Numbered from the stretch's first letter, positions 19,995-32,813 are shown. The stretch: DNA of 33,967 bases from a virus (IMGVR_UViG_3300020420_000861:1-33967), one strand, 5' to 3'. Notes: a model not told the origin generated them from the sequence alone. A program made the numbers and translations.

Positions 19995-20548
19995 ACAAAG
20001 ATTTGTTATGTGAATATTTTGAAAAATACCTAATCGATAAATTTGTATTACAACTTATTTCGTATGAATTAAAAGAAGTGAAAGGGTCGTCAGATATAAG
20101 CATTAAGTTGCTTGAAAGTAGTGACTACATCACTATCGATGGGTCTGGGGTGGGTCTGGCAGATTCTGCTTTTGATGCTTTGCTTGGTAAGTATTCTAGT
20201 AGGTATGCATCTTTAACGACTATTGATTTGTCAGATCTGTACTTTCAAATTGATCACGGTGGCGATAGAAGTATGAATTTTAGATCCAAGACTGATATAA
20301 AAGTTGAGTTTTTAAATGCGGCAAACAGGAAGACATGCTTTAGTGAGAGAACAACATCGATAGGTTTTACAACGGTTAGCGTTTTAACAAAGGCAGTTGA
20401 ATTTTACATAAATTCTGAATTACTTTTTAAAAGAATTAAATACTTAATTGAAGACGCGAAAGACAGAGGAAGATCTGACATAGCAGCAGGACTCGTATAC
20501 GATTTATCAAAAGTCGTGGAGGTAACAAGTTATCAGGATATCACCTAA
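19991..20548 (+). CDS. Protein with LeuA-allosteric-domain-like core
   Basis: 185 residues; ATGA overlap. Residues 45-160 carry the order seen in the LeuA dimerisation/regulatory domain: TIDGSGVGLADSAFDALL (compare G-x-GPVDA), a strand YFQIDHGG, then SERTTSIGFTTVSVLTKAVE (compare G.G.S.DIV.AS..A). No catalytic TIM barrel is present, so it cannot be an isopropylmalate synthase; the fold may be reused for ligand binding or virion assembly. The similarity is by eye. Confidence 0.75.
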   Translation: MNKDLLCEYFEKYLIDKFVLQLISYELKEVKGSSDISIKLLESSDYITIDGSGVGLADSAFDALLGKYSSRYASLTTIDLSDLYFQIDHGGDRSMNFRSKTDIKVEFLNAANRKTCFSERTTSIGFTTVSVLTKAVEFYINSELLFKRIKYLIEDAKDRGRSDIAAGLVYDLSKVVEVTSYQDIT

Positions 20549-20684
20549 CAGGATAGAAAATCTATCTTTAATATTTTGGTCTTTGCTTTTTACACTAGTT
20601 ATATTTCTTTTAAAGTCTTATTCAGAAGAAAAAGAAAGGAGAGAAGAGCAACCACAACAGTACCAATGCGAATGTAGATACTAG
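20532..20684 (+). CDS. Possible tiny membrane protein with ATC start
   Basis: An open frame of 50 codons runs from ATC at 20532 to TAG at 20684. It would encode one strongly hydrophobic segment (LSLIFWSLLFTLVIFLLK) followed by a charged tail ending in CECRY, as in other tiny membrane proteins here. GGAGG lies nine bases before the ATC. No ATG or GTG occurs in frame; TTG at 20583 would cut the membrane segment. ATC is a rare start, so this is uncertain. Confidence 0.4.
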   Translation: MRISPNRIENLSLIFWSLLFTLVIFLLKSYSEEKERREEQPQQYQCECRY

Positions 20685-20691
20685 TTACTTT

Positions 20692-21003
20692 ATGAGCAAG
20701 GTCAATCTTGGTAGACCTGTCGTTGGTGATCTAGTTAATCACTATGCGTTCAGCAGGTTGTCATGGTTAGGTTTAGTGTTGAAGATTACTTTTGCCGAAA
20801 ATGATAAGGATGATAGAGCATTTGTTAAGATGATACCTGGAACTAAGCATGAAAACTTTTTTCACGGTGGAAATGGTGGTTGGGTTTATCGAAAGTGGCT
20901 TTGGGTTTATAAAGGAGAAATATCTTATGATGAAAAAACTAAAACCATTATTTATAGAGAACAGCAGGGTGCCAGTCTGGTTGTCCAAGGTAGCACCGAT
21001 TGA
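20692..21003 (+). CDS. Small SH3-like protein
   Basis: 103 residues. It has the pattern shared by about ten small proteins of this window: GDLV near the start, then GLVL..I, AFVKM and KWLWVYKGEI strands, suggesting a compact beta-barrel. No ribosome site better than weak AT-rich sequence is seen before the ATG. Overlaps the next gene by 77 bases. Confidence 0.7.
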   Translation: MSKVNLGRPVVGDLVNHYAFSRLSWLGLVLKITFAENDKDDRAFVKMIPGTKHENFFHGGNGGWVYRKWLWVYKGEISYDEKTKTIIYREQQGASLVVQGSTD

Positions 21004-21331
21004 AATTTATGCGTTATCTTTTGGTGTATTTGTTTGGTGTAGATTCCTCTTGTCTCCTACGACCAAGAGGCATGAAACCATACACTTTCAACAGCAACTG
21101 GAACTAGCGTTTGTAGGGCAGTGGATACTCTATGTTCTTTTCTGGTTAGTAGGATTTGTTATTTATCGTGGCGACGGACGTAAAGCATACTACGAATCGC
21201 CATTCGAAAGAGAGGCATATGCTAACGACCATGATAAGGAATATCTGGAAAATAGACCCAGGTATAACTGGGTTAGGTACATTATCAAGGGTTCACAAAA
21301 TGCGGAAGAAAAGACAAAAACTAAAGATTAG
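20927..21331 (+). CDS. Membrane HExxH metalloprotease-like protein
   Basis: 134 residues from ATG at 20927, with AAAGGAGAAA upstream; an earlier in-frame ATG at 20849 lacks such a site. The motif HETIH (49-53) lies in RHETIHFQQQLEL and is followed by a hydrophobic span (FVGQWILYVLFWLVGFVIY) and then SPFEREAYAND, whose Glu could be the third zinc ligand of a gluzincin. I recall a family of small bacterial membrane proteins with HEKIH...FEREAY. Activity and substrate are unknown. The long overlap with the previous gene is notable. Confidence 0.8.
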   Translation: MMKKLKPLFIENSRVPVWLSKVAPIEIYALSFGVFVWCRFLLSPTTKRHETIHFQQQLELAFVGQWILYVLFWLVGFVIYRGDGRKAYYESPFEREAYANDHDKEYLENRPRYNWVRYIIKGSQNAEEKTKTKD

Positions 21332-21440
21332 AAACCCCATTGCTGTTGCTTTACAAAAGCGTCACGGCGGTGGTGTGAAACCACACAAAAATAAAAAGAA
21401 ATATACTAGAAAATTAAAACACAAAACGCTTGACTTTTAA
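21300..21440 (+). CDS. Tiny highly basic protein
   Basis: 46 residues from ATG at 21300, overlapping the previous gene by 32 bases. About 40% Lys/Arg/His (RKKRQKLKIRNPIAVALQKR then KPHKNKKKYTRK). The segment RNPIAVAL resembles short basic proteins common in marine phages (RNPVAKAL). It probably binds nucleic acid. Confidence 0.6.
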   Translation: MRKKRQKLKIRNPIAVALQKRHGGGVKPHKNKKKYTRKLKHKTLDF

Positions 21441-21458
21441 ATAAATTTACATTATATT
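21430..21458 (+). promoter_or_regulatory. Sigma-70 promoter for the UV endonuclease
   Basis: TTGACT (21430-21435), 17-base spacer, TATATT (21453-21458). The -35 overlaps the end of the tiny basic gene. Transcription should start about 18 bases before the ATG at 21483. Confidence 0.65.
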
Positions 21459-21482
21459 AGTTAAATAATGAAAGGGATTAAC

Positions 21483-22442
21483 ATGAATCTTGGTTACGCA
21501 TGTATAAACATGACCTTGTCGAACAGACCAAAGAGCAAAAGGGTCACCACAAATCGTTCTATGATTAGAAGAACATTTCTTGAAAAGGGTTTACCTTATG
21601 CCTCAGAACTTGGACTTCAAAATGCAAAAGACCTTATTGAAATCTTAAGGTGGAATGAAAACAATGGTATCAAGTTTTTTAGAATGTCATCTGACATCTT
21701 CCCTTGGTCATCGGAGTATAATCTAAAAGACTTGCCAGACTACGAAGAAATTGCGTGGTATTTGGATAAAGCAGGACTGTATGCTTGGAAGCATGGCCAT
21801 CGCATTACGACACACCCAGGACCTTTTAATGTTCTTGGGTCGCCAAATGAGGACACAGTTAAAAAAACCATTAAAGAACTTGAAACTCACTCAGAGGTTT
21901 TTGACTTGATGAGATTACCTGATACCCCTTATGCCAAAATCAACATTCATGTTGGTGGAACGTATGGCGGAGATTTTTCTAATACTGCTGATAGGTGGAT
22001 TAGGAACTACATGAAGTTGTCCTCTAATTGCCAGAATAGACTAACCCTGGAAAACGACGATAAAGCAAGCATGTGGTCAGTTAAGCATTTGTATGACTAT
22101 ATTTACAGTGTCATCAGAGTGCCTATTGTTTTTGATTATCATCATTACAAGTTCTGTCAAGGGGGACAAACAGAGGAGGAGGCATTGAAGATGGCAGCGT
22201 CTACTTGGGAAGGTGTAACTCCCGTTGTTCACTTGTCAGAATCTAGAAGAAAAGAGCAAGCGGATAATAAGATTAAAGAACAGGCGCATTCAGATTATAT
22301 TTATGGTGCTGTAGATAACTATGGCGTTAACTATGATATGATGTTAGAGTGTAAGATGAAAGAGTTAGCGCTTTTGAAATACAGAGCGATATTGAATTTA
22401 GAAGAGTGTAGTGATGGTAAAGAAGAAAAGGCATGTTGCTAA
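21483..22442 (+). CDS. uvsE: UV damage endonuclease (UvdE/UvsE)
   Basis: 319 residues from ATG at 21483 (AAAGGGATT upstream; the ATG at 21468 lacks a ribosome site). UVDE family landmarks: LGYACINM at the N-terminus, RMSSDIFPW, TTHPGPF, NIHVGGTYG, LTLENDD, VFDYHHY and VVHLSES, the metal-ligand strands of its TIM-barrel. It nicks DNA 5' of UV photoproducts, giving the phage repair independent of host excision repair. The end overlaps the next gene by 29 bases; the C-terminal CC may be functionally neutral. Confidence 0.93.
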   Translation: MNLGYACINMTLSNRPKSKRVTTNRSMIRRTFLEKGLPYASELGLQNAKDLIEILRWNENNGIKFFRMSSDIFPWSSEYNLKDLPDYEEIAWYLDKAGLYAWKHGHRITTHPGPFNVLGSPNEDTVKKTIKELETHSEVFDLMRLPDTPYAKINIHVGGTYGGDFSNTADRWIRNYMKLSSNCQNRLTLENDDKASMWSVKHLYDYIYSVIRVPIVFDYHHYKFCQGGQTEEEALKMAASTWEGVTPVVHLSESRRKEQADNKIKEQAHSDYIYGAVDNYGVNYDMMLECKMKELALLKYRAILNLEECSDGKEEKACC

Positions 22443-22623
22443 GGCATTAACCTGGAGAGCAGTCGGAACAGTAGATTCATTTGGTTTGGCGTGGTTTTTA
22501 ACAGGCAGCGTAGAATTGGGCGCAGCGTTTAGTGCAATGGAGTTCGTAACTAAGACAATTTTATATTATGTGCATGAGCGTGTTTGGTACAAATTTAAGT
22601 GGGGCGTCAACGAAAAATCTTGA
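22414..22623 (+). CDS. DUF2061 membrane protein
   Basis: 69 residues from ATG at 22414. The pattern KALTWRAVGTVDSFGLAWFL, TGS, AFSAMEFVTKTILYYVHERVW is that of DUF2061, a predicted two-span membrane family of unknown function found in bacteria and phages. Starts inside the UV endonuclease gene. Confidence 0.85.
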   Translation: MVKKKRHVAKALTWRAVGTVDSFGLAWFLTGSVELGAAFSAMEFVTKTILYYVHERVWYKFKWGVNEKS

Positions 22624-22802
22624 AAGTGGGAGACTTAGTAGAGTATGCCCATTGGGAAAAGGTGGAATTACTTACTCCAGATGTTAGAGTAGGCGTGATA
22701 ATCATCGGACCTAACGAGGTTGGGAAAGTAAGAGTTATGTTTGGAGATCGCAAAATGTGGGTATGGACAGGCGACTTAAGGTTGTTGAGCAGTGTTAAGT
22801 AA
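22620..22802 (+). CDS. Small SH3-like protein (KVGDLV type)
   Basis: 60 residues from TTG at 22620, overlapping the previous TGA by four bases. The TTG is chosen over an in-frame GTG at 22599 because the product then begins KVGDLVEY like its paralogues. Strands VGVIIIGP, VRVMF and MWVWTGDLRLL complete the five-strand pattern. Confidence 0.7.
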   Translation: MKVGDLVEYAHWEKVELLTPDVRVGVIIIGPNEVGKVRVMFGDRKMWVWTGDLRLLSSVK

Positions 22803-23220
22803 CTTAAACAATGTCAAAAAGGGCGATGTTATTTTAACAGAGTTCGGTTCTGGAGTACTTATAAGAGAGACGCGTGCAAGGTGGTTCTATCTATTCAAAG
22901 GCAAGATTTTATCAATGTCTAAGTCAGTATTTTGGCATAGTATTGATATGGGTTACATGAAGGTTTCATATGTTGAGAGTAAAAAATATAGAACTAAACA
23001 AAAAAGATTTAGAACATTGGATCTAAGGCAAAAGACATTAGAAGATGCTGAGTTTATTTTTCACAAGTTTATTGATTTTGTGAAAACTCCCTTCAACATA
23101 GTGTTAAACTATGAAGAAGGATTAGATTTTCACAGTCTCACCAGTCAATTAGAAAAGTATGGTTATGCCTTTACTTGGGAAAAGATTGGTGATAGAACAA
23201 TTATAAAGGTTAAACAATGA
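22792..23220 (+). CDS. Protein with SH3-like N-terminus and unknown C-terminal domain
   Basis: 142 residues from GTG at 22792, overlapping the previous gene by 11 bases. Residues 8-60 follow the KKGDVIL..GSGVLI...WFYLF pattern of the window's SH3-like proteins. A C-terminal domain (80-142) with DAEFIFHKFIDFV and TIIKVKQ is added, so it is a fusion or a longer branch. No known family. Confidence 0.7.
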   Translation: MLSNLNNVKKGDVILTEFGSGVLIRETRARWFYLFKGKILSMSKSVFWHSIDMGYMKVSYVESKKYRTKQKRFRTLDLRQKTLEDAEFIFHKFIDFVKTPFNIVLNYEEGLDFHSLTSQLEKYGYAFTWEKIGDRTIIKVKQ

Positions 23221-23447
23221 AAAAAGAAAAAGTGAACCATCCAGATCATTACAACAAAGGCGAATTTGAAGTCATTGATGTTATCGAAGATTGGTTTGAT
23301 GGACTTGACTTTTGTGCAGGTAATGTGATAAAATATGTAGCAAGATATAAACACAAGGAGAAACCAATTGAAGACTTAAAAAAAGCAAAGTGGTACCTTA
23401 ATAGAATGATTGATCAGATAACCAGAAAAGGAGATAACAATGGGTAA
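23217..23447 (+). CDS. DUF3310 protein
   Basis: 76 residues; ATGA overlap. NHPDHYNKG, then EVIDVIEDW, GNVIKYVARYKHK and DLKKAKWYLNRMI match DUF3310, a widespread phage family often annotated as nucleotide-kinase-like although the function is unproven. Followed closely by the FKBP gene (8-base overlap). Confidence 0.9.
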   Translation: MKKEKVNHPDHYNKGEFEVIDVIEDWFDGLDFCAGNVIKYVARYKHKEKPIEDLKKAKWYLNRMIDQITRKGDNNG

Positions 23448-23877
23448 GAAAACAATCGCAAAGCAAGGAAGAAATGTAATGGTCCATTACAAGGGATCAT
23501 TTCGGGATGGAACTGTATTTGACAGTTCGTATGATAGGGGTGAACCTATTAACTTTACTGTTGGAACAGGGCAGATGATTCCCGGTTTTGATGAAGCAGT
23601 TTCAGGCATGAGGGTTGGCGAGACAAAAAATGTTACGCTCTCTCCCGATGAGGCGTATGGGTCTCACAATCCAGATGGTGTACAAGAAGTCAACAAGGAG
23701 CACTTCCCAGATGATTTCGAGTTTGAGACAGGTGTCGTGATCGAGGGACAAGTTGGAACTCAACCTGTCCGAGGCATCATAAATTCGATTAACGAGGAGA
23801 CAGTTACTGTTGACTTTAATCACCCTATGGCGGGAAAGGATCTTAATTTTGAAATTGAGTTAGTTCAAGTAGAGTAG
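23440..23877 (+). CDS. FKBP-type peptidyl-prolyl isomerase, SlyD-like
   Basis: 145 residues with AAAAGGAGATAACA before ATG. FKBP core motifs VMVHYKGSFRDGTVFDSSY, GTGQMIPGFDEAV and GMRVGETKNVTL are followed by an insert-in-flap domain (about residues 70-125) and the ending HPMAGKDLNFEIEL typical of SlyD. The His-rich nickel tail of SlyD is absent. It speeds proline isomerisation and holds unfolded chains. It adds to the phage's chaperone set. Confidence 0.93.
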   Translation: MGKKTIAKQGRNVMVHYKGSFRDGTVFDSSYDRGEPINFTVGTGQMIPGFDEAVSGMRVGETKNVTLSPDEAYGSHNPDGVQEVNKEHFPDDFEFETGVVIEGQVGTQPVRGIINSINEETVTVDFNHPMAGKDLNFEIELVQVE

Positions 23878-23890
23878 TTCTCTTTTAAAA

Positions 23891-23899
23891 ACTATTTAT
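23891..23899 (+). promoter_or_regulatory. Putative late-promoter motif close to the start codon
   Basis: ACTATTTAT: fourth copy of the CTATTTA core. The ATG at 23903 is only 11 bases from the core start, so transcription here would give a leaderless message or belong to another start. Confidence 0.3.
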
Positions 23900-23902
23900 T
23901 AT

Positions 23903-24166
23903 ATGGAAAGAGAGTTTGAGGTCGGGCAAAAGGTCTACCTGCGAGACTATCCTATGGGTAGACCTTTAAATATATTTGGCAAGGTCGTTGGATACAGCGG
24001 CAAACAATATATTAACGTCCTCTTGATGAATGGCATAAATGCAGAACAGATTAAACCGTACAAACAATGGGATTTGATGAGTGAAGAATGCGTATTGAGT
24101 CTAAGGAACAAAGAACAGGCAAAGGATATAGATGGCACACTAGAGAGTACGACAACAGTGGAATGA
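23903..24166 (+). CDS. Small SH3-like protein
   Basis: 87 residues. REFEVGQKVYLRDYP, then FGKVVGYSGKQYINVLLM, shows the shared beta-rich pattern (G-x-x-V at start, a second strand with GKV). No ribosome site precedes the ATG. Acidic C-terminal tail without family resemblance. Confidence 0.65.
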   Translation: MEREFEVGQKVYLRDYPMGRPLNIFGKVVGYSGKQYINVLLMNGINAEQIKPYKQWDLMSEECVLSLRNKEQAKDIDGTLESTTTVE

Positions 24167-24375
24167 TGATGTCGGAATACTCTGGGTACGCTATTGATAA
24201 CCTAGACACTAAAGATCTGGACGATGCAAATGGTGATTTTGAAAAGATATTTATCCATTCAAGAAACATACTGTCTGAGTATGAAAATCAAAGCGGCGCT
24301 CTTTCTGAAATAAGTTTAGATGTTTGCCACCACCTGGCAAGACAATTGTCTAGATATTTTGGAGAAAAAAGGTGA
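24163..24375 (+). CDS. Unknown small protein
   Basis: 70 residues from ATG at 24163, chosen because its ATGA overlaps the previous stop; an in-frame ATG at 24088 would add 25 residues and overlap by 79 bases. Acidic, helical (DFEKIFIHSRNILSEYE and DVCHHLARQLSRYF). No family recognised. Confidence 0.6.
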   Translation: MMMSEYSGYAIDNLDTKDLDDANGDFEKIFIHSRNILSEYENQSGALSEISLDVCHHLARQLSRYFGEKR

Positions 24376-24554
24376 AAAAAAGAAGTGAGATACTTAAAGG
24401 TTGCCTAGTCAAATTAAAACCAGGTAGGTGGTCTGACCATATTGATGAAACCCGTATGGGTATTGTGCTCGAAAGAGATAAAGTCGAAGCAAAGGTTTTG
24501 TTTTTTACTGGTCATATTGAAACTCACTGGACTAAAAGTTTACAGAGGATTTGA
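24372..24554 (+). CDS. Small SH3-like protein
   Basis: 60 residues from GTG with a GTGA overlap. KGCLVKLKPG, MGIVLERD, AKVLFF and THWTKSLQRI give the same strand order as the other short paralogues (cLV, GIVL, VLF, W..SL). Confidence 0.7.
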   Translation: MKKRSEILKGCLVKLKPGRWSDHIDETRMGIVLERDKVEAKVLFFTGHIETHWTKSLQRI

Positions 24555-24556
24555 CC

Positions 24557-24697
24557 ATGTGGTTTTGGAACTTAATTAAGTTTAACGCTTTTATTGACAT
24601 TGTTTGTCTGGTAACTATAGGAACCCTATTACTAAAAGTACACTCCCTAGAAAAAAGGTTAGAAGAATGGAAAATATCAAACAAGGAGAAGCAGTAA
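24557..24697 (+). CDS. Tiny single-span membrane protein
   Basis: 46 residues from ATG at 24557 (AGAGGAT upstream). One hydrophobic segment (FNAFIDIVCLVTIGTLLLKV) flanked by a short N-terminus and a charged tail (LEKRLEEWKISNKEKQ). Too short for standard gene finding, but ribosome site and tight spacing support it. Overlaps the next gene by 31 bases. Confidence 0.6.
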   Translation: MWFWNLIKFNAFIDIVCLVTIGTLLLKVHSLEKRLEEWKISNKEKQ

Positions 24698-24918
24698 TTT
24701 TTACTGCCACTTATGATCTCTTTGACACAGACGTTATGGGCATGGAAGGTATGTTTTACAAAAAGACATCGGAGGATAAATGCTTAGTGTACGTGCCCAG
24801 TGTCGATGAATGGGCGGAACCAAAAATCTCAATCGTTAAACAAAAAAAACCTGGACATGTACCAAGAAAGTATGCTAATCTATGTAAACACATTAGAGAA
24901 TTACAAATAACTGCGTAG
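24667..24918 (+). CDS. Small SH3-like protein
   Basis: 83 residues from ATG at 24667, inside the previous tiny gene. KQGEAVIFTATY, MEGMFYKK, CLVYVPSVDEW give a beta-rich pattern close to the GDLV family. C-terminal basic helix (KKPGHVPRKYANLCKHIREL). A TTG start further upstream is less likely. Confidence 0.65.
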   Translation: MENIKQGEAVIFTATYDLFDTDVMGMEGMFYKKTSEDKCLVYVPSVDEWAEPKISIVKQKKPGHVPRKYANLCKHIRELQITA

Positions 24919-24937
24919 TTGAAGTTGAGGTGGTAGT

Positions 24938-25165
24938 ATGAAAATGTTCTTGTTATTTTTCGTTTTTGTTTTGCAGGGTTGCTTAATTGTGGTCGACGAC
25001 TGCGATATAAACCATCCAGATTATGAATACACAGAGACAGACTGCTACTATACGATTGACACAGTTAGAGTGTGTAACAGGCACTATTGTTGGAATGAAA
25101 CAAGAGATGTGCATGTTTGTGAAGAGTATCACGTTTGCAGAGAAGGCGTGTGGGTTGTGAGATGA
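24938..25165 (+). CDS. Small Cys-rich lipoprotein
   Basis: 75 residues; GAGGTGG before ATG. A 14-residue signal ends in the lipobox LQGC (Cys15). The mature part holds eight further Cys in CxxxxxxxxxxxxC and HYCW...HVCEEYHVC patterns, so it is likely an outer-membrane-attached, disulfide-stabilised protein of an infected cell. No family recognised. It is the second lipoprotein of this window. Possible roles include superinfection exclusion, but this is inference. Confidence 0.75.
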   Translation: MKMFLLFFVFVLQGCLIVVDDCDINHPDYEYTETDCYYTIDTVRVCNRHYCWNETRDVHVCEEYHVCREGVWVVR

Positions 25166-25590
25166 GCAAATTGAAAGAAAGCAGGATCATAGAAAAAATA
25201 TCATATCTTTCAGACGGTACTAGGAAAAGTATTAATGCGACTAACAACGGCACCTTTAAGTTTCCTGTTGTTGAAGTCATAGAGGGACAGAGAAGGGTTA
25301 TGCGTAGGGAACTGACCGCAAAAGAATTTGTTCATCACCCTAGCATTGTAAACGCTGACCCCGTTGTAACTTTAAAAGATGGCACTAAGATCAGAGTTTT
25401 TAACGGAGGTGACCCTTCCTACTTGCCTGCAATGTCAGAGGGAATACTCAACAAAAATGATAAGTTTGAGACATTAAGAAGGAAGTTTACAGACCAGAAG
25501 AAAAAAAGAAGAGAAAAGAAGAAGGATGCTAATGATACAGACGAGTACGATAGTCCTTTTTCAGGTTGGAATTTTGATTATTATGATTAG
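25162..25590 (+). CDS. Unknown protein with charged tail
   Basis: 142 residues from ATG at 25162, with ATGA overlap. Beta-rich N-terminus (FKFPVVEVIEGQRRVMRRE, VVTLKDGTKIRVF) and a strongly basic stretch KKKRREKKKDAND near the C-terminus, ending in aromatic GWNFDYYD. No family recognised. Confidence 0.65.
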   Translation: MSKLKESRIIEKISYLSDGTRKSINATNNGTFKFPVVEVIEGQRRVMRRELTAKEFVHHPSIVNADPVVTLKDGTKIRVFNGGDPSYLPAMSEGILNKNDKFETLRRKFTDQKKKRREKKKDANDTDEYDSPFSGWNFDYYD

Positions 25591-25816
25591 GCAGGAGTTT
25601 GATATAGGCGATTTAGTTAAATTAGTTGGACCAATTGGTGCAGCGGGTGAGGTTGGTTTGGTTACTGCAAACAACAGGATACAAGAACTTCCGGAAAGGA
25701 GTGACTACCACTGGCACCGTGACGAATATCGCTGTTTAGTAAAATTAACCACTGGTGAGTGCGAGTGGGTTAGGGCGAAATTTCTTAGAATTATTTCTAG
25801 AGCAGGAGTGTTATGA
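25583..25816 (+). CDS. Small SH3-like protein
   Basis: 77 residues from ATG at 25583. FDIGDLVKLVGP, GEVGLVTANN, YRCLVKLTTGECEWV and RAKFLRIIS show the full family layout: GDLV, GLV, a central V.L strand, W-V, then a closing hydrophobic strand. It overlaps the previous gene by 8 bases. Confidence 0.75.
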   Translation: MIRQEFDIGDLVKLVGPIGAAGEVGLVTANNRIQELPERSDYHWHRDEYRCLVKLTTGECEWVRAKFLRIISRAGVL

Positions 25817-25817
25817 T

Positions 25818-25913
25818 ATGTTAGAAATTGTGGGTGAAGTTTTCATTCTTGCTGCTGCAATATTTGTTGGCAGTGTAGCATTTGATTGGTGGCGAAACAG
25901 GAGAAGATATTAA
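25818..25913 (+). CDS. Tiny membrane protein
   Basis: 31 residues. One hydrophobic segment (VGEVFILAAAIFVGSVAFDWW) and a short basic tail RNRRRY. AGGAG lies nine to ten bases upstream and the spacing to both neighbours is one to two bases. Confidence 0.55.
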   Translation: MLEIVGEVFILAAAIFVGSVAFDWWRNRRRY

Positions 25914-25914
25914 A

Positions 25915-25995
25915 ATGTTTTGGACGAACTTTTTTTCTTGCTTTGCCGCAATAATTTTGGTAGAATACATTAAATTGTTGTTGAAAGACACGTGA
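25915..25995 (+). CDS. Tiny membrane protein
   Basis: 26 residues (MFWTNFFSCFAAIILVEYIK then LLLKDT). A single hydrophobic segment. AGGAGAAG is 10 bases upstream of ATG. Supported only by ribosome site, hydrophobicity and position in the run of tiny membrane genes. Confidence 0.45.
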   Translation: MFWTNFFSCFAAIILVEYIKLLLKDT

Positions 25996-26020
25996 TTTAT
26001 TACAAACAATAGGAGGTAGT

Positions 26021-26206
26021 ATGAGAAGTAATAAAAATTTGTCAAATTTGTGTTTCCTGGCGTCGTTGGCATCGGTAGCATGCTCAATTTTGACGTGGGT
26101 GACAGTATCACCAGATGACCCAGCGCATGCTGAGAGGTTTGGTATTTTCATTGGTTTATGGGCACCGACACTTATGGGGTTGTCTGTTTACTTTAAGGAG
26201 GATTGA
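26021..26206 (+). CDS. Small two-span membrane protein
   Basis: 61 residues with an ideal AGGAGG site. Two hydrophobic segments (LCFLASLASVACSILTWVTV and FGIFIGLWAPTLMGLSVYF) joined by a short acidic loop DDPAHAERF. No family recognised. Confidence 0.7.
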   Translation: MRSNKNLSNLCFLASLASVACSILTWVTVSPDDPAHAERFGIFIGLWAPTLMGLSVYFKED

Positions 26207-26208
26207 CA

Positions 26209-26424
26209 TTGAGTCCTAACCTTGCAGAGTTTTTAAAAGTATTTACGATTGTATTTACTTTTTCCAGTATGATCTTAATCGGCCGACGCATGATGGTGGC
26301 AGATGTTGAGGAAGAAGAAGAGGAGCGTGATAACGTTGTTGATTTACCTGGTTATGTTGATAGCGTTGATTACGATGGAATGGGAAATTATGGGAGGTTC
26401 CCCTCTAAAAAGAGGAAGAGGTAA
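26209..26424 (+). CDS. Small membrane protein with acidic domain
   Basis: 71 residues from TTG at 26209, seven bases after AAGGAGG; the TTG at 26203 is too close to the site. One membrane span (FLKVFTIVFTFSSMILI) then VEEEEEERD and a basic end FPSKKRKR. Stop lies 10 bases before tRNA-Arg. Confidence 0.6.
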   Translation: MSPNLAEFLKVFTIVFTFSSMILIGRRMMVADVEEEEEERDNVVDLPGYVDSVDYDGMGNYGRFPSKKRKR

Positions 26425-26434
26425 GTGATTCAAA

Positions 26435-26511
<77 letters not shown>

Positions 26512-26524
26512 CTTTTACATCAAA

Positions 26525-27010
26525 ATGTTTAACAAATCAGAATATTTCAAAAAATGGGACCCTGCAATTGACTACAGGAGTAACCCAAAGTTATATAAAA
26601 TAGGAAGAGGTCAACAGGGTGTGTTGATCTGTGAACCCTATAAGTCAGAGATCTGTGCGCACTGGAGGTTTAAAACACTGGAAGAAGCACAACGCTCCAG
26701 CGAAAAGATATATCTTATGTTTGAAGAGTATCTTGATATTGGAGATTTTGTAGGTGCAGATATGGCGAAAAAGTTTCTACACATGGGTTTTACAAGGTCA
26801 AGAAGGTATGCAAACCACAGAGATGGCATAAAATACAGTTCTAGTGGTGACATACTGCCACAAGAACCAGATGCATTAACTTGCGAGAAGGCACAGTCTG
26901 CTGTAGTCTTTCGTGAAGTATGGAAACTTGCAAGAGAAAATAAAAAATATCTTGACTTAAAAAATAAACACCGTATAATAGAAAAATCAATGGAGGATAA
27001 TTATGTTTAA
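26525..27010 (+). CDS. DUF4385 protein
   Basis: 161 residues. Matches DUF4385 along its length as I recall it: WDPAIDYRSNPKLYKIGRG, QGVLICEPYKSEI, HWRFKT, GDFVGADMAKKFLHMGFTR and RRYANH. A basic, widespread protein of phages and bacteria with no known function. It carries a promoter for the next gene within its end and overlaps it by 8 bases. Confidence 0.9.
   Translation: MFNKSEYFKKWDPAIDYRSNPKLYKIGRGQQGVLICEPYKSEICAHWRFKTLEEAQRSSEKIYLMFEEYLDIGDFVGADMAKKFLHMGFTRSRRYANHRDGIKYSSSGDILPQEPDALTCEKAQSAVVFREVWKLARENKKYLDLKNKHRIIEKSMEDNYV
26952..26979 (+). promoter_or_regulatory. Sigma-70 promoter for the methylase/endonuclease/iscU genes
   Basis: TTGACT (26952-26957), 16-base spacer, TATAAT (26974-26979), ending 23 bases before the methylase ATG, which has GGAGG at 26992-26996. 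It lies inside the end of the DUF4385 gene. Confidence 0.65.
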
Positions 27011-27911
27011 GACACCGCTTAGATACCCTGGTGGTAAATCCAGAGCAACAGGCAGACTGAGTGCTGACTTCCCAAAAGGTTTCTCAGAATATAGGGAACC
27101 GTTTTTGGGTGGTGGATCCGTTGCGATTGCTGTTACTACCTCTAATCTTCGACCTATTGATGTTTGGGTCAATGATGCTTACTATAACCTTTATAATTTT
27201 TGGGTTCAACTAAGAGATCGCGGACAAGATCTGCAAGATGAATTAATAAGGATTAAAGAACCCATTAATTATGTTGCGAAACCATTGCGCAAAAATAAAA
27301 TTCATAAATCTCAGTGGGACAAGTCGATACTTGATAATATAGGAAAGCATCGTGACCTATTCAATAAGGCAAAGTCTGAGATTGGCAGCGTTGATAATTT
27401 TACAAAAGCAGTTTACTTTTGGATTCTAAACAAGTGCAGTTTCTCAGGATTGGGTGAGAGTAGTTCTTTCTCTGAACAGGCATCAGAGCAGAACTTTAAT
27501 CTTAGCGGTATGCATAAACTAACACAGTACACAAAAGCAATCAAAGATTGGAAGATCACTAATTTAGATTATGCCGATGTTATGAACGCACCTGGTGGTG
27601 ATGACTGTTTTGTCTTCCTTGATCCGCCTTACAATATTAAAGATAATCTTTACGGTAAGAACGGCGATATGCATTCTGGTTTTAACCATATGAAGTTTTA
27701 CGAAGATGTTGTTAAGTGTCCTCATGATTGGATGATAACTTATAATTCTAACGAAGTTTTGAAAAAAAGATTTTCAGATTATTATTTTAATGATTGGGAC
27801 TTGACATATACAATGCAATCTAGTAAAGTATATTCACAGTCGCAAAAAGATCGAAAAGAATTATTGATTACAAGTTATGAAAGGAATAACAATGATCAAC
27901 TTGAAAAATGA
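27003..27911 (+). CDS. dam: Dam-type DNA adenine methyltransferase
   Basis: 302 residues. N-terminal LRYPGGKS and EPFLGGGSVAI form the AdoMet site; FLDPPYNIK (D207-P-P-Y210) is the catalytic motif of N6-adenine methylases of the Dam class (order of motifs X, I... IV). A central target-recognition region (about 85-180) contains KCSFSGLG. Dam-like enzymes usually modify GATC, but sequence preference cannot be read here. Directly followed by, and overlapping by 20 bases, a probable endonuclease, so the pair may be a restriction-modification system. Otherwise it could protect phage DNA from host restriction. Confidence 0.93.
   Translation: MFKTPLRYPGGKSRATGRLSADFPKGFSEYREPFLGGGSVAIAVTTSNLRPIDVWVNDAYYNLYNFWVQLRDRGQDLQDELIRIKEPINYVAKPLRKNKIHKSQWDKSILDNIGKHRDLFNKAKSEIGSVDNFTKAVYFWILNKCSFSGLGESSSFSEQASEQNFNLSGMHKLTQYTKAIKDWKITNLDYADVMNAPGGDDCFVFLDPPYNIKDNLYGKNGDMHSGFNHMKFYEDVVKCPHDWMITYNSNEVLKKRFSDYYFNDWDLTYTMQSSKVYSQSQKDRKELLITSYERNNNDQLEK
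27801..27829 (+). promoter_or_regulatory. Possible promoter for the endonuclease
   Basis: TTGACA (27801-27806), 17-base spacer, TAAAGT (27824-27829), inside the end of the methylase gene and 63 bases before the endonuclease ATG. The -10 matches only 4 of 6 positions. Confidence 0.3.
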
Positions 27912-28419
27912 TGTAAACTGGAAAAAAGTGTTTGGAGTAATTAATTCAGTTAGCACCCTGACAAGGAATCAAACTAGACCACTGCGAACTGAGATTGTAG
28001 AGATGGCAATTGCCAAATACAGTGGTGGCAAGTTAAAGTATGTTGGTGACTCTGCTGATGGTATGGACTTTGAAGGTTCTGATGGTCTTCGCTATGAGTG
28101 TAAGATGCAGGGTACAATCTTTCAACCGACTACACCCCACAGTGCAAAGGTTATTTTGAAGAATCACTACTCTACTAAGAAGCATGATATCAAAAAAACA
28201 TTTGACAAGATGATTTTTATTGACACAAAGAAGAGAAAGGTTGGCGTAGTAGACTTTGAACAATTGTCGATAGAGAATAAGTCTGCTGATGTTAAGTGCT
28301 GGGTAAAAGACCAAAGTGTAGTGGACATCGTTGCTGACGGCGTGACTGCTGACAAGAGTTATGATGGGTTAAACATGGAGCAAGTTATATTTGAAGCGAT
28401 CCAAAAGAGTATGAAGTAA
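27892..28419 (+). CDS. Probable PD-(D/E)XK restriction endonuclease
   Basis: 175 residues from ATG at 27892, six bases after AAGG; an in-frame ATG at 27877 lacks one. The core shows the nuclease pattern: a helix with E34 (LRTEIVEMAIAKY), D57/D59 in SADGMDFEG, and YECKM with E69 and K71, i.e. D-(x)9-11-E-x-K. No helicase or methylase domain is fused, so it would be a small type II enzyme, partnered with the adjacent methylase. Overlap with the methylase gene by 20 bases would couple their dosage. It could alternatively be a phage nuclease for host DNA. Fold likely, cleavage unproven. Confidence 0.75.
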   Translation: MINLKNDVNWKKVFGVINSVSTLTRNQTRPLRTEIVEMAIAKYSGGKLKYVGDSADGMDFEGSDGLRYECKMQGTIFQPTTPHSAKVILKNHYSTKKHDIKKTFDKMIFIDTKKRKVGVVDFEQLSIENKSADVKCWVKDQSVVDIVADGVTADKSYDGLNMEQVIFEAIQKSMK

Positions 28420-28802
28420 TGGCGTATTCTAAGGAAGTTTTAGATCATTATGATAACCCAAGGAACGTGGGGTCGCTCAACAAAGATGACCAAGACGTTG
28501 GAACTGGTTTGGTAGGCGCACCTGCCTGCGGCGATGTCATGAAGTTACAAATTAAGGTTGGTAAAGATGGTGTCATAGAAGACGCAAAGTTTAAAACTTA
28601 CGGTTGTGGGTCTGCAATTGCGTCTTCGTCTTTGGTAACCGAGTGGATTAAAGGTAGAACGATTGATGAAGCATCAGATATAAAGAATACTGACATCGCA
28701 AGTCATCTATCTTTACCACCAGTTAAGATACATTGTTCGGTCTTGGCCGAAGATGCAATTCGTGCTGCAATCGAAGACTATAAAAATAAAAATAATTCTT
28801 GA
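28419..28802 (+). CDS. iscU: IscU-type Fe-S cluster scaffold
   Basis: 127 residues; the ATG shares a base with the previous TAA. Complete IscU: NPRNVGS, GAPACGDVM (C37, D39), TYGCGSAIASSS (C63), the HscA-binding LPPVKIHCS motif (C106, preceded by H105) and AEDAI. All three cluster Cys are intact. It closely follows the bacterial ISC type as I recall it, unlike the diverged phage proteins around, suggesting recent capture from a host. No IscS, IscA or ferredoxin is seen. It would act on host ISC machinery, perhaps to supply Fe-S enzymes during infection. Confidence 0.95.
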   Translation: MAYSKEVLDHYDNPRNVGSLNKDDQDVGTGLVGAPACGDVMKLQIKVGKDGVIEDAKFKTYGCGSAIASSSLVTEWIKGRTIDEASDIKNTDIASHLSLPPVKIHCSVLAEDAIRAAIEDYKNKNNS

Positions 28803-28827
28803 CAATTAAAATAAAAGTTTATATAAT
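28799..28827 (+). promoter_or_regulatory. Perfect-consensus sigma-70 promoter for the RNA ligase
   Basis: TTGACA (28799-28804), 17-base spacer, TATAAT (28822-28827). The -35 begins at the iscU stop codon. RNA ligase ATG follows 31 bases after the -10 box. Confidence 0.85.
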
Positions 28828-28857
28828 ACATTCACAACTTAAATGAAAGGACATAAT

Positions 28858-30000
28858 ATGTCGTTGCATCCTAATGTTCAGAAAATTGCTAAATTAATCA
28901 CTTCAGAGATTAGAACCATTGAGGACAAGAAGACCAAGTGGGCATCGTTTAAGAGAGAGAACGCTCAGAAATTCAAGGAACTATTGCACCTTGAGCACAC
29001 CGATATGAAAAACCCTGGAGAACTATTAGGGTTTGATATTGATGAAGAGCGTCAACTGATTCTGTTAAATTATACAGGTCAGGCACACAATGTATTACAT
29101 GAAGTAGATCGAGGTTGGTCACAACCCCTGCGCGACATGCGCGGTATGATCTACGACTTCAGTGTGGAGGAACCAGTTCTCGTTAGCAGAGGATTCGAGA
29201 AGTTCTTCAACTACAGTGAGTTGCCAGAAAATACGTATACGGAACTCACTCGAAAGTATGGAAACAGGACGTACCGCGCAAGAGAAAAAGCAGACGGTCA
29301 TATGATCGAATACTTTGTGCACAACGGTGAACTGTGTTCCTCCACGCGAGGTAAATTTGGAACAATAAGTGCGGAGATTGCAAGTAGTATGCTTTCTCTT
29401 TCGGACTTTCGACAAGTAGAGGAGACTATCGGTTGTAAATTAATGACATTGGTTGTAGAGTTAATTCATCCGTACACAAAAGTCTTCGTTGATTATGACA
29501 ATGCGGAAACGCTATACTTGTTGAACGCATACGATTCCGATGGCGAGTCCCTGTGTCTCGGAGATCTGGAGTATATTTGCGAGTCAATGCCGCACCTCTT
29601 TATCTGTCCTGATTCTCGTGTGATGACGTTGAACGAAATTGTTGATGAAGTCAGCAGTCGATCAGTGTCTAATCACGAGGGTTGGGTCATGAATTTTGAT
29701 GGACAACTTATAAAATTTAAATATATCAACTACATTGGCGAGATGGTTAAAAGTAAATTAAGTTACAAGTATATCATGAATTGCATGATCAAGGGTCGTC
29801 TTGATAAGATGATGCACATGTTGCCTGAAGAGATCAGGGAAGTAGCGTATAAGATGGTTGATGTTGTTAATGAGACTGCTAGTGAGGCACAGAACGTAGG
29901 TGATCATAAAATCCTCTACAACTTACATAATGACAATGAAGGTGGTGAGAATTACTTCAGGACTGTGTGCAGGAACTTTTACAGGTTCGTTACAGCGTAG
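28858..30000 (+). CDS. RNA ligase, T4 Rnl1 type
   Basis: 380 residues from ATG at 28858 (GAAAGGA upstream; an ATG at 28843 lacks it). Nucleotidyltransferase motifs: lysine KADG (K144-D146-G147), SRGFEKFFNY before it, STRGKFGT after, HEGWVM (motif IV) and LIKFKYINY (motif V). The layout and C-terminal helical region fit the T4 Rnl1 family, which repairs tRNA cut by host anticodon nucleases. The gene uses CGN Arg codons (CGC, CGA, CGT) more than its neighbours, which favour AGA/AGG, so it may be a recent acquisition. Its repair partners could be the tRNA cluster and the HAD phosphatase. Confidence 0.92.
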   Translation: MSLHPNVQKIAKLITSEIRTIEDKKTKWASFKRENAQKFKELLHLEHTDMKNPGELLGFDIDEERQLILLNYTGQAHNVLHEVDRGWSQPLRDMRGMIYDFSVEEPVLVSRGFEKFFNYSELPENTYTELTRKYGNRTYRAREKADGHMIEYFVHNGELCSSTRGKFGTISAEIASSMLSLSDFRQVEETIGCKLMTLVVELIHPYTKVFVDYDNAETLYLLNAYDSDGESLCLGDLEYICESMPHLFICPDSRVMTLNEIVDEVSSRSVSNHEGWVMNFDGQLIKFKYINYIGEMVKSKLSYKYIMNCMIKGRLDKMMHMLPEEIREVAYKMVDVVNETASEAQNVGDHKILYNLHNDNEGGENYFRTVCRNFYRFVTA

Positions 30001-30009
30001 GAGTTATAA

Positions 30010-30186
30010 ATGGACATAGGTGCTATACTTTTAGTTGCTTCTTATGCTTATCTACTATCTGCATTAGTTAGGTTTTTTGTGGCAAGGTCTTCTCCTTCGG
30101 TAGAAGAGGAAAGAAAAAAGAGGGTTGATAGTCTTTATGGTAGAGAAGAGACAGATAATCAAAAACATAACAGACTATCTCGTTAA
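30010..30186 (+). CDS. Small single-span membrane protein
   Basis: 58 residues; AGGAG six bases upstream. N-terminal hydrophobic segment (IGAILLVASYAYLLSALVRFF) and a charged C-terminal half (EEERKKRVDSLYGREE). Missed by length filters but well placed. Overlaps the following gene by 50 bases. Confidence 0.6.
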   Translation: MDIGAILLVASYAYLLSALVRFFVARSSPSVEEERKKRVDSLYGREETDNQKHNRLSR

Positions 30187-30652
30187 CGTAATCGAGGTAC
30201 CAAGACAAGAATTTTCAGGATTTGCCGTTTGTCCGTTTTCAAAATCTGAAAGGGTTAAGGGTAGACTGATGGTTGACGTGCTAGATCACTCTAGTGAATC
30301 ATTCTTAGATTGTATGAATAGAATGACTGAGAAGGGTTGCACTTCAGCAGTCTTGGCACTTTTTGATGGTGGTGTGCCTGTTGTGATGGACAAATCGGAA
30401 ACGGTTGGGTTTTCAAAGTTTCTGAATAGGATTATGAGAGACAATGGGATATTGGGTTATAAAAATATATGCACTAATCCCAGTGATGAGGTAGATGCAG
30501 ATGGATACAATCCAAGATCCCAGTCTCCATACTTCCTTATTGTAATATCAGAGACAGATGACCTTGATAAAAAAAGAAAGTCCTTGACAAAAACAAAATA
30601 CTACGATAAGATGTCTGACAAATATAAAAGATTTCTTAGTTTGGACCTGTAG
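30137..30652 (+). CDS. Unknown protein whose stop lies in tRNA-Met
   Basis: 171 residues from ATG at 30137 (GAGGG upstream, spacing loose; a TTG four codons earlier is too close). Alpha/beta protein with FAVCPFSKSERVKG and SAVLALFDGGVPVVM; CPF..K recalls a Cys motif of some thiol proteins but no family is assigned. Its last codons and stop overlap the first 10 bases of the following tRNA. Confidence 0.7.
   Translation: MVEKRQIIKNITDYLVNVIEVPRQEFSGFAVCPFSKSERVKGRLMVDVLDHSSESFLDCMNRMTEKGCTSAVLALFDGGVPVVMDKSETVGFSKFLNRIMRDNGILGYKNICTNPSDEVDADGYNPRSQSPYFLIVISETDDLDKKRKSLTKTKYYDKMSDKYKRFLSLDL
30584..30612 (+). promoter_or_regulatory. Promoter for the tRNA cluster
   Basis: TTGACA (30584-30589), 17-base spacer, TAAGAT (30607-30612), 30 bases before the first tRNA, within the end of the preceding gene. 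Confidence 0.5.
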
Positions 30653-30718
30653 TTCAGTGGTTAGAACACCCGGCTCATAACCGGTTGGTCCTCGGTTCAA
30701 ATCCGAGCGGGTCCACCA
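30643..30718 (+). tRNA. tRNA with CAT anticodon (Met or lysidine-modified Ile2; 30676-30678)
   Basis: 76 bases with encoded CCA. Acceptor GGACCTG / CGGGTCC, loop CTCATAA, T-arm CTCGG-TTCAAAT-CCGAG. G1-C72 pairing and lack of three GC pairs below the anticodon loop exclude the initiator. The D-loop and the C4-G69 pair resemble E. coli tRNA-Ile2, so it might read AUA after lysidine modification; elongator Met is the alternative. Confidence 0.95.
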
Positions 30719-30719
30719 A

Positions 30720-30792
30720 GGGTCGCTGGCGCAATTGGCAGCGCATCGGACTTTTAATCCGTTGGTTCTGGGTTCGAGTCCCAGGCGACCCA
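30720..30792 (+). tRNA. tRNA-Lys (anticodon TTT, 30753-30755)
   Basis: 73 bases, one base after the previous tRNA. Acceptor GGGTCGC / GCGACCC is perfectly paired, loop CTTTTAA, T-arm CTGGG-TTCGAGT-CCCAG. CCA is not encoded (ACAA follows). It reads AAA, the dominant Lys codon here. Confidence 0.95.
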
Positions 30793-30798
30793 CAATCT

Positions 30799-30872
30799 CC
30801 TCCTCGGCCGGATGGTGTTCGGGAGGCGTCTTATAAGCGTCTTGAAGCAGAGTTCAATTCTCTGGGGGAGGA
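30799..30872 (+). tRNA. Candidate degenerate tRNA-Ile (anticodon TAT, 30832-30834)
   Basis: Cloverleaf: acceptor CCTCCTC / GGGGAGG (one wobble), anticodon stem GGCGT / GCGTC with loop CTTATAA, T-arm CAGAG-TTCAATT-CTCTG fitting TTCRANY exactly, discriminator A. D-arm is weak and the usual U8 is a G; CTA stands in place of CCA. Anticodon UAU would read AUA. Ile identity elements C4-G69, C29-G41 and A73 fit. Could be a decaying or unusual tRNA. Confidence 0.55.
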
Positions 30873-30894
30873 CTACAATTTATTGGAGGTTAGT

Positions 30895-31116
30895 GTGAAA
30901 AGACTTATAATGGAAAATTTGCCAACATCACAGAAAAGGCAACATTTAGATACGCTAGTCAGTGGTATTTTTTGTGACTTACAGCAACTTGATGAGAATG
31001 TAGATTTACACAGTATATACAGGATTATTAAAGTGCTGCACGATGAACAAGACCTATTTATCTTTAGTGATGGTACGGTTGCAGCAACAAAGAAGGGACT
31101 TAATAAGTATGGATAG
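30895..31116 (+). CDS. Unknown small protein
   Basis: 73 residues from GTG at 30895, five bases after GGAGG; the open frame extends upstream through the tRNAs, which cannot be coding. Helical, acidic, with a C-terminal FIFSDGTVAATKKGLNKYG. No family recognised. Confidence 0.65.
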   Translation: MKRLIMENLPTSQKRQHLDTLVSGIFCDLQQLDENVDLHSIYRIIKVLHDEQDLFIFSDGTVAATKKGLNKYG

Positions 31117-31127
31117 GAGGATTGCTG

Positions 31128-31289
31128 ATGCGTTCGGACAAGTGGTGTTACTATTCAGACCCAGATTTAAAAACAGAGAAAATCCTCAAGGTGAACGTAC
31201 CAATATCTAAACGTCAAGCAATTTTTATTATAAAAAAAAGATTGCAAATTTCAAAAATTTATTATATTATTAGTTGTAAATCGAAATGA
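31128..31289 (+). CDS. Unknown tiny protein
   Basis: 53 residues; GGAGG seven bases upstream, ATG at 31128. KVNVPISKRQAIFIIKKRL and aromatic ISKIYYIISCKSK follow. It overlaps the promoter at 31242. Resembles nothing I recognise; support is ribosome site plus spacing. Confidence 0.5.
   Translation: MRSDKWCYYSDPDLKTEKILKVNVPISKRQAIFIIKKRLQISKIYYIISCKSK
31242..31270 (+). promoter_or_regulatory. Sigma-70-like promoter
   Basis: TTGCAA (31242-31247), 17-base spacer, TATTAT (31265-31270), 33 bases before the ATG at 31303. Confidence 0.55.
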
Positions 31290-31302
31290 ACGGAGGTCTT
31301 TC

Positions 31303-32001
31303 ATGATTAAGCGAATCGAAAAAGCAATTTATTCTGTTAAACTATCTTGTGCTGCTGGTGTTATAACCGAGACAACTACAAATAGATTTTCCGATTTTCT
31401 TAAATCAATTTTAAGGCAGGTAGAAAGTAACAGGACACTTTCAGGTGGTCAGGAAAAATACCTATCTGATATTGAAGAGGTATGTTCTAACAAGTCGATT
31501 GAAGAGTCTCTACAGTGGGCAGTCGACTATAATGATGACCTGAGAGAAGCGGCACTTATATGCGCTCAGTACTACCAGGCACTAGATGATTCGAATCAGG
31601 GCAACTACTTTTCCAAGCAAAGGGAAATTGTCCTCAATGATCCTTCGGGTCATGTATTGAGTAAAAAGCAGTTCAAAGGCATGTGTGGCAATAAGTTTGC
31701 TGTTAAAGTTTTACAAGAGATGAAAAGAGAACCTAAGTTTTCTGTTGGGCAAATGGTCTTACTAAGGTCAACCAATAGACTTGACATGGCACCCATTGCC
31801 AATAGAGGGGCAGCAAGATTTGCCTACAACTTACACCGCGCCGCCGTCAGGGGTGAAAAAGTTATGGCACTTGTAACGTCTGTTGACCCCATACCAATTT
31901 ACAGGGCGTCTAAAGGTGGTAGAGTGTACAGTATTTTACCAGTGGGTTCACAGAATATGCTGTATTCATCCGAGAAAGACCTAAAGAGCGTTAGAACCTA
32001 A
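31303..32001 (+). CDS. Unknown protein with C-terminal SH3-like domain
   Basis: 232 residues; ACGGAGG before ATG. The first half is helical (residues 1-145, with SGGQEKYLSDIEEV and QYYQALDDSN). The second half opens with FSVGQMVLLRST and has MALVTSVDP and YSILPVGSQNMLY, ending in EKDLKSV, the layout of the window's short SH3-like proteins. So the short proteins may derive from, or be recruited alongside, this longer one. It has its own promoter. Confidence 0.75.
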   Translation: MIKRIEKAIYSVKLSCAAGVITETTTNRFSDFLKSILRQVESNRTLSGGQEKYLSDIEEVCSNKSIEESLQWAVDYNDDLREAALICAQYYQALDDSNQGNYFSKQREIVLNDPSGHVLSKKQFKGMCGNKFAVKVLQEMKREPKFSVGQMVLLRSTNRLDMAPIANRGAARFAYNLHRAAVRGEKVMALVTSVDPIPIYRASKGGRVYSILPVGSQNMLYSSEKDLKSVRT

Positions 32002-32201
32002 TGGAGGTTGGTACTCTTGTACAACTTTTTACACGCTCTGTCTTGAGAAGCGAAGAAATTAATATCGGAATCATACTGAAGGGTCCAGAGTGGAGGGGAG
32101 GATTCATAGAGTCTTACTATGTTAAGTGGGCAAATGAACAGGACTTGCTTGATAACCCAGGATGGATGCCTGCAACACACCTAAAGCGTTTTGAAAAATA
32201 A
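32001..32201 (+). CDS. Small SH3-like protein
   Basis: 66 residues; TAATG junction. MEVGTLVQLF, IGIILKGP, SYYVKW and PATHLKRF follow the family pattern: G-x-L-V, GIIL, V-W, a closing L-K-R. The last 15 bases precede a promoter. Confidence 0.75.
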   Translation: MEVGTLVQLFTRSVLRSEEINIGIILKGPEWRGGFIESYYVKWANEQDLLDNPGWMPATHLKRFEK

Positions 32202-32202
32202 T

Positions 32203-32231
32203 TTGACAAACAAAACAAATTTTGAAATAAT
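32203..32231 (+). promoter_or_regulatory. Sigma-70-like promoter
   Basis: TTGACA (32203-32208), 17-base spacer, AATAAT (32226-32231), 33 bases before the ATG at 32264. Confidence 0.55.
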
Positions 32232-32263
32232 ACATTTATATTAAATCTAAAAGGGTTCGATAA

Positions 32264-32494: not shown

Positions 32495-32495
32495 T

Positions 32496-32702: not shown

Positions 32703-32806
32703 AAGAGTTTCTTTGGGTCGCTCTTGGTTTTATTCTCGGTTCTGCTATTGGAGTTCATGGTCTTATGGAAATAGTAGATAAAGTATTGAAATTGTTTAAC
32801 TTTTGA
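32699..32806 (+). CDS. Tiny membrane protein
   Basis: 35 residues; ATGA overlap with the previous gene, GAGGG upstream. One hydrophobic segment with Gly (FLWVALGFILGSAIGVHGLM) and a short amphipathic tail. Confidence 0.6.
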   Translation: MKEFLWVALGFILGSAIGVHGLMEIVDKVLKLFNF

Positions 32807-32813
32807 TTTTTAT

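Follow-up and report, generated by a model that had tools for sequence, protein, structure and literature searches.

The window analyzed here is the whole 33,967-nt virus fragment IMGVR_UViG_3300020420_000861:1-33967 from IMG/VR, which has no close cultured relative. Two parts of it carry short genes for SH3-like and small membrane proteins, one of them also a lipoprotein gene: block 1 (24372-26424) and block 2 (from about 32000 to the contig end). Block 2 appears from its sequence to be the truncated beginning of a larger tandem array of SH3-like genes, in which neighboring genes are joined by one repeated stop/start junction. A profile of 271 non-redundant array proteins, all from other phages (whose loci carry L numbers below), matches eight open reading frames (ORFs) of the window with E values no higher than 4e-4; the reversed window ORFs all scored E 2.4 or higher. 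Block 2 contains the following features:

32001-32201, plus strand: SH3-like family gene that opens the variable region (array profile E 2.5e-5; no close relative)
32699-32806, plus strand: conserved gene for a 35-residue membrane protein (46-85% identity in L008, L011, L014, L015, L016, and others)
32814-32842, plus strand: sigma-70-like promoter TTGCAT-N17-TCTAAT, the only exact match in the window
32849-32923, plus strand: 24-residue ORF, probably not a gene: homologues and a ribosome site are lacking, and its first base falls on the expected +1 of the 32814-32842 promoter
32925-33059, plus strand: membrane gene with one homologue (L043:4192-4314), likewise just upstream of an SH3 gene
33056-33238, plus strand: SH3-like array gene (array profile E 1.8e-6; no close relative)
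33235-33423, plus strand: membrane gene within the array, with homologues in L005/L014 and L015 beside other neighbors
33423-33614, plus strand: SH3-like array cassette (array profile E 2e-12; 48-70% homologues in L011, L138, L043, and L014)
33591-33606, plus strand: 5' half of a junction (TTGGAGGTTGTCAGTG) inside the end of the preceding cassette, recognized by comparison with the consensus, where the next gene has its ribosome site and GTG start
33604-33795, plus strand: non-SH3 gene in the array, ending in NESR (60-65% homologues in L027 and L042, 43% in L031, with other neighbors)
33782-33795, plus strand: 14-nt overlap ATGAAAGTCGGTGA, holding the start of the next SH3 gene and the stop of the previous gene
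33782-33967, plus strand: SH3-like array cassette cut by the contig end (array profile E 1.7e-12; 65% homologue in L011)
33947-33967, plus strand: further array junction TTGGAGATTATAAGTGAAAGT, within which the contig ends (19 of 21 bases agree with the consensus)

The contig end at 33947-33967 is probably an assembly break at the repeat, and assemblies may commonly break there. The 32814-32842 promoter has a one-mismatch copy in L014, at the same position after the homologue of the 32699 membrane gene.

In the relatives, the counterpart of block 2 consists of tandem genes for ~60-residue SH3-like proteins that start with MKVGDLV and end with LEVISESR. Each cassette is ~180 nt long, and adjacent genes overlap by exactly 14 nt within a junction of ~33 nt (TTGGAGGTNNTCAGTGAAAGTCGGTGATTTGGT) that is conserved between about positions -12 and +20 relative to the start codon. 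One frame of the junction encodes the end of the upstream protein, LEVISESR and its stop, and the other supplies the ribosome site of the downstream gene, its GTG or ATG start, and its first residues, MKVGDLV. The residue before ESR is Ser where the next gene starts with GTG (349) and Asn where it starts with ATG (150); the tail of each protein is thus a read-through of the next gene's start region.

How widespread is this junction? In L014, the junction DNA is repeated, with eight matches of at most three mismatches compared with none in shuffled sequences, and the exact pattern was found in at least 120 stretches on at least 107 contigs of IMG/VR and, among 84,980 prokaryote genomes, on four contigs, all from metagenome bins. 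Among the matches listed, 189 of 189 place a GTG that opens an MKVGDLV-type ORF, and 171 of the 176 complete ORFs of at least 30 residues opened at exact junctions belong to the SH3 family. After duplicate removal, the collection comprised 1080 distinct genes (median 63 residues) at 122 loci, all of one family and mostly with the one junction, in arrays of up to 20 cassettes in a row in which SH3 genes mostly follow SH3 genes. The exact 14-nt overlap was present in 523 of the 688 adjacent non-duplicate pairs, a frequency inflated by the use of the junction itself to collect most loci; at loci retrieved through other genes, 15 of 26 pairs had it.

The arrays belong, to judge from the genes compared, to a lineage of large phages without a cultured relative in the collection searched. 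The DnaE protein of the window is ~30% identical to its best cultured matches but 39-86% identical to the DnaE of all 26 of 26 large IMG/VR records (102 to 284 kb). Junctions occur in 24 of these 26 records, on one strand only within a record, and a reversed-pattern control gave zero. Of the 26, 23 also have a MoxR-type ATPase gene, roughly 1-15 kb from the array junctions in most of those compared; in most of the large records, this gene near the arrays is followed by a VWA/peptidase-like gene (L014:17529-19867 and counterparts). Searches of cultured phages with block DNA, junction DNA, one cassette, and concatenated cassettes (tblastn) returned no match beyond one tRNA gene, that for Lys, which is the only DNA of 20000-33967 that matches cultured phages. 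The window has four tRNA genes (Arg, Met, Lys, and Ile), at 26435-26511 and 30643-30873.

Could single genes pass from phage to phage at this junction? We compared non-duplicate cassettes of different loci with a body identity of at least 75%. Both neighbors were unrelated in 60 of the 81 comparisons, 11 of them between cassettes at least 95% identical (for example, L065 and L036, 100%). When cassette pairs were aligned at start and stop, identity fell from ~0.85 inside to ~0.3 outside, and the change occurred at the junction. The cassettes are under purifying selection, with a ratio of nonsynonymous to synonymous differences (pN/pS) of 0.28 in 137 pairs. The window conforms to this pattern, as the homologues of its genes 33235, 33423, 33604, and 33782 adjoin other genes elsewhere. 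As a pattern in these alignments, junction-bounded exchange of single genes is strongly supported.

Rows of copies with an identical overlap are also the expected product of local tandem duplication and divergence, in which the overlap would be copied and kept by coupled translation, and neighbors would come to differ by loss or duplication within each phage. The similarity of junctions, 0.734 within loci and 0.724 between loci, is what such constraint would give; these nearly equal values led us to reject local homogenization of junctions. However, similar copies within one locus are rare (three pairs at 75% or more), which argues against simple recent tandem duplication; furthermore, cassettes 95-100% identical occur in different phages with unrelated neighbors on both sides, and the similarity stops at the junction. 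Duplication is therefore an unlikely source of the pattern.

Integron gene cassettes carry an attC recombination site that folds as a hairpin and is used by the integron integrase. By analogy, a dedicated integrase-like or homing enzyme might recognize the junction and move the cassettes, and the single common boundary sequence, the single-gene units, and the many cassettes per array would suit it. On the other hand, the junction consensus has no obvious inverted repeat, its bases are explained by the two reading frames and the ribosome site, and no recombinase was identified beside the arrays, though neither integrases nor other recombinases were systematically searched for. We regard such an enzyme as very improbable.

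Instead, the exchange we favor would need only ordinary homologous recombination. The same junction flanks every cassette on both sides, and recombination there can add, remove, or swap one gene; because the junction is shared by both cassette ends, such a change leaves the frame, stop, and translation of the neighbors intact. Any cassette can follow any other, so recombination at the junction is tolerated and single genes circulate. The array genes would be translationally coupled.

What do the cassettes encode? AlphaFold2 predicts a five-stranded SH3-like barrel for the product of 25583 (predicted local distance difference test score, pLDDT, 79), an SH3 gene of block 1, and for that of 33423 (pLDDT 90). 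The 25583 model matched the Spt5 KOW domain (4zn3; VIA Z 9.9, 61 residues, root-mean-square deviation (rmsd) 1.7) as well as NusG KOW barrels, and the 33423 model matched the same range of barrels (Z up to 7.6, 55 residues, rmsd 2.6). Taken alone, the matches of 33423 reflect a common arrangement, yet they agree with the 25583 model. A likeness of the 33423 model to the type II dihydrofolate reductase R67 (Z 7.6) is no stronger than that to many other barrels, and we do not read a relationship into it. The array family is thus predicted, from these models, to have an SH3-like small-barrel fold of ~60 residues.

This predicted five-stranded barrel resembles the KOW/Tudor/SH3-like small barrels, and the NusG C-terminal domain, Spt5 KOW, PsaE, and PetP are among the best structural matches of both models; in contrast to these, the phage family shares no Pfam or NCBIfam match and is only weakly matched in a PDB profile search (best E 0.043, NusG). 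Searches of Pfam, PHROG, NCBIfam, and PADLOC assigned the SH3 genes to no usable family, and the single PHROG matches among them (phrog_9237, phrog_9469, and phrog_5639) carry no function. Among 62 family members, no Pfam or NCBIfam family was matched by more than one, and KOW was absent from the Pfam matches up to E 0.01; the PADLOC models gave two weak matches to these members, to one candidate family (best E 0.0019).

The regions upstream of block 2 contain further members of the SH3-like family among other small genes:

20692-21003, plus strand: SH3-like family gene, 103 residues, outside the array (array profile E 4e-4; homologues in 16 loci)
22599-22802, plus strand: SH3-like family gene, 67 residues, at a conserved locus (array profile E 7e-8; 36-64% identity in relatives; a scan with its protein found nothing)
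24372-24554, plus strand: SH3-like family gene, 60 residues, a fast-evolving member of the conserved block (array profile E 4e-5; counterparts at the same place in relatives, 25-41% identity)
24551-24697, plus strand: single-span membrane gene, its start more likely the ATG at 24557 (54-58% identity and a ratio of nonsynonymous to synonymous substitution rates, dN/dS, of 0.03-0.39 in five relatives)
24667-24918, plus strand: conserved soluble gene, 83 residues (59-73% identity in seven relatives)
24938-25165, plus strand: Cys-rich lipoprotein gene with lipobox LQGC (dN/dS 0.02-0.28 in close relatives; lipobox and other cysteines conserved in relatives)
25162-25590, plus strand: conserved soluble gene, 142 residues (40-58% identity in eight relatives)
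25583-25816, plus strand: SH3-like family gene, 77 residues, the best-conserved SH3 gene of block 1 (array profile E 1e-5; hhalign to the array family 95.6%, E 1e-8)
25818-25913, plus strand: single-span membrane gene, 31 residues, after the 25583 homologue in most relatives, including L016
25915-25995, plus strand: membrane ORF, 26 residues (homologue in L015 only)
26021-26206, plus strand: two-span membrane gene, phrog_23295 (PHROG E 1.7e-10)
26203-26424, plus strand: membrane gene with an acidic tail (homologues in L002 and L015)

Using the FKBP and RNA ligase genes, we retrieved seven distinct relative contigs with about 70-75% nucleotide identity. The gene order from 23903 to 25913 is much alike in all seven, and an eighth, L016, has part of it. 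Across the relatives, the tiny membrane and lipoprotein genes differ mainly by synonymous substitutions, which, together with the conserved order, indicates that these genes are real. For the membrane genes 24551, 25818, and 32699 and the lipoprotein gene 24938, the substitution pattern is that of coding sequence, with dN/dS mostly well below 1, the values being approximate as synonymous sites are saturated in many pairs. The phrog_23295 gene occupies differing positions in other phages and therefore seems to be mobile too. A second lipoprotein gene, of 182 residues, lies between the conserved block and a Dam methylase gene in two relatives (L005:13369-13917 and L008:4263-4811) and is absent in the window. 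Far upstream, at 1592-3799, the window encodes a 735-residue protein that combines a lipobox and a vWA-like segment (ILFILDWSGSMDDE) with repeats of a CDGEDNDCDGxIDE-type (MopE-like) motif; its sequence is unusual in a phage and suggestive of a surface protein.

The original prediction had taken the mixture of soluble and membrane genes in both blocks for an ordered alternation, with a hint of paired parts acting together at the envelope. The ORFs do lie at the predicted positions, many with 4-nt or other short overlaps, and the SH3 assignment holds for 24372, 25583, 33056, and 33423, which match the array profile (E 4e-5 to 2e-12). It could not be confirmed for 24667-24918, which has no array-profile link and an hhalign probability of 0.4% against the family. 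The proposed order SH3, membrane, SH3, lipoprotein, SH3 passes over the conserved 142-residue soluble gene at 25162-25590, and for block 2 the gene list counted in the doubtful 24-residue ORF and missed the SH3 gene at 33782-33967. With soluble and membrane classes assigned by hand from profile hits and hydropathy, label shuffling over 20692-33967 placed the alternation no higher than chance (p 0.15 with profile-confirmed labels, 0.08 with the predicted ones), nor was it above chance within block 1 (p 0.53) or block 2 (p 0.53). The alternation is mostly chance.

Do the soluble and membrane genes nevertheless form fixed pairs with a joint action at the host envelope, such as superinfection exclusion? 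In favor of this, the order and coding of block 1 are conserved, as the prediction expected, the lipoprotein 24938 is strongly conserved, and 25583 and 25818 are neighbors in most relatives. Conservation of block 1 does not by itself imply pairing, however, and most soluble/membrane neighbors change between relatives. In four relatives a further small soluble gene lies between 24372 and 24551, and in two others the membrane gene is missing or replaced; the 24551 homologue adjoins the SH3 gene in L015 only and is absent in L020 and L008. An extra membrane gene stands between 24667 and the lipoprotein gene in at least three relatives. Even the 25583/25818 adjacency, the only fairly stable one, is not kept in L003, and the distant 25583 homologues of L162 and L163 have no membrane neighbor. 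In block 2, the order is not conserved: 32001 and 33056 have no close relative, the homologues of 33235, 33423, 33604, and 33782 stand beside genes that differ from phage to phage, and the arrays run mostly from SH3 gene to SH3 gene. Envelope pairs are thus quite improbable, somewhat more so than tandem duplication. A spanin pair of membrane gene and lipoprotein was ruled out by size and lack of adjacency.

We consider it quite probable that the SH3-like genes are an accessory small-barrel repertoire of one large-phage lineage, of which block 1 is a stable part and block 2 the start of an array; the membrane genes would be other small accessory genes of the same regions, not obligate partners. 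Besides the inflated junction frequency, several points weigh against this interpretation. The window has only three junctions of its own, of which one shows the full 14-nt overlap, one is a half, and one is cut off where the contig ends, and a search of it for the junction pattern with up to three mismatches gave none; the array is therefore read mostly from relatives. The conservation of the junction can be explained by overlapping coding and a ribosome site and need not mark a dedicated exchange signal, and no recombinase was linked to it, though no systematic search was made. The SH3 genes outside the array (20692, 22599, 24372, and 25583) are stable and may serve other roles. Finally, the early expression and host-directed function considered next are predicted from sequence.

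The upstream sequences of the arrays suggest when the genes may be expressed. A 10/12 match to a sigma-70 promoter precedes 23.5% of run-first genes (those opening runs that begin after a gap) compared with 1.2% of inner genes and 0% of shuffled sequences. Because such promoters favor run-first genes, the sigma-70-like promoters would drive early expression of the arrays. A common barrel core with a variable surface, early-type promoters, and rapid turnover would fit proteins that bind host targets for takeover or counter-defense, a role to which we give slightly less than an even chance.

Phages of other groups offer partial parallels. In T4-type phages, modular shuffling is mediated by PeSL elements (Arbiol et al. 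2010; Comeau et al. 2014, cited in PMC4503421); as summarized there, a regulatory repeat is the site at which related phages reshuffle small early genes of unknown function in variable regions. The array likewise shows exchange between related phages at a repeat, with breakpoints at the junction. In the same summary, however, PeSLs are promoter and stem-loop motifs between genes, whereas the array repeat lies inside overlapping coding sequence, genes are exchanged singly, and most of the exchanged units have the same fold. A promoter-plus-terminator boundary of the PeSL type was not found: the array boundary is the coding overlap, and promoters only head some runs. Cluster K mycobacteriophages carry start-associated sequences (SAS/ESAS), conserved ribosome-site repeats beside many non-structural gene starts, sometimes with the upstream stop codon (PMC3203893). 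Unlike the junction, these are 13 bp long, occur in 11-19 copies before genes of many families, do not extend into coding sequence of a shared family, and are not reported as boundaries of single-gene exchange (PMC3203893). The 13-bp SAS GGGATAGGAGCCC before the start codon does not correspond to the junction, whose consensus differs and spans the start codon to about +20. The ORFanage of the marine cyanophage S-PM2 is, similarly, a large cluster of small genes that close relatives lack and whose synteny is rarely conserved in metagenomes; no repeated junction or shared fold is reported for it, and its loss is by one large deletion (PMC4503421).

By these comparisons, T4 PeSL shuffling and the mycobacteriophage start-associated sequences are the nearest analogues, and in neither, as described in the sources cited, do a coding-overlap boundary, single-gene units, and a single common fold occur together. 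We found no description of such an array in the open-access literature, nor any literature match for the peptide MKVGDLV.

Large phages are full of small genes without known function, whose acquisition and retention are poorly understood. In the present arrays, sequence reveals the exchanged unit, its boundary, and the exchange itself. Adjacency in such arrays should not be read as functional pairing, and contig ends there should not be trusted. The junction is a ready tag for retrieving more such genes from metagenomes, and the small size and probable solubility of the array proteins would make large-scale screening for their host targets feasible. Tentatively, and with less confidence than in a host-directed role as such, we suggest that a single stop/start junction of ~33 nt may allow exchange of single genes of one barrel fold across the whole lineage, with each phage sampling a large shared pool of genes for small host-directed proteins and expressing them early. 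The logic would be comparable to that of integron arrays, with the difference that here the translation junction itself would be the site of exchange.

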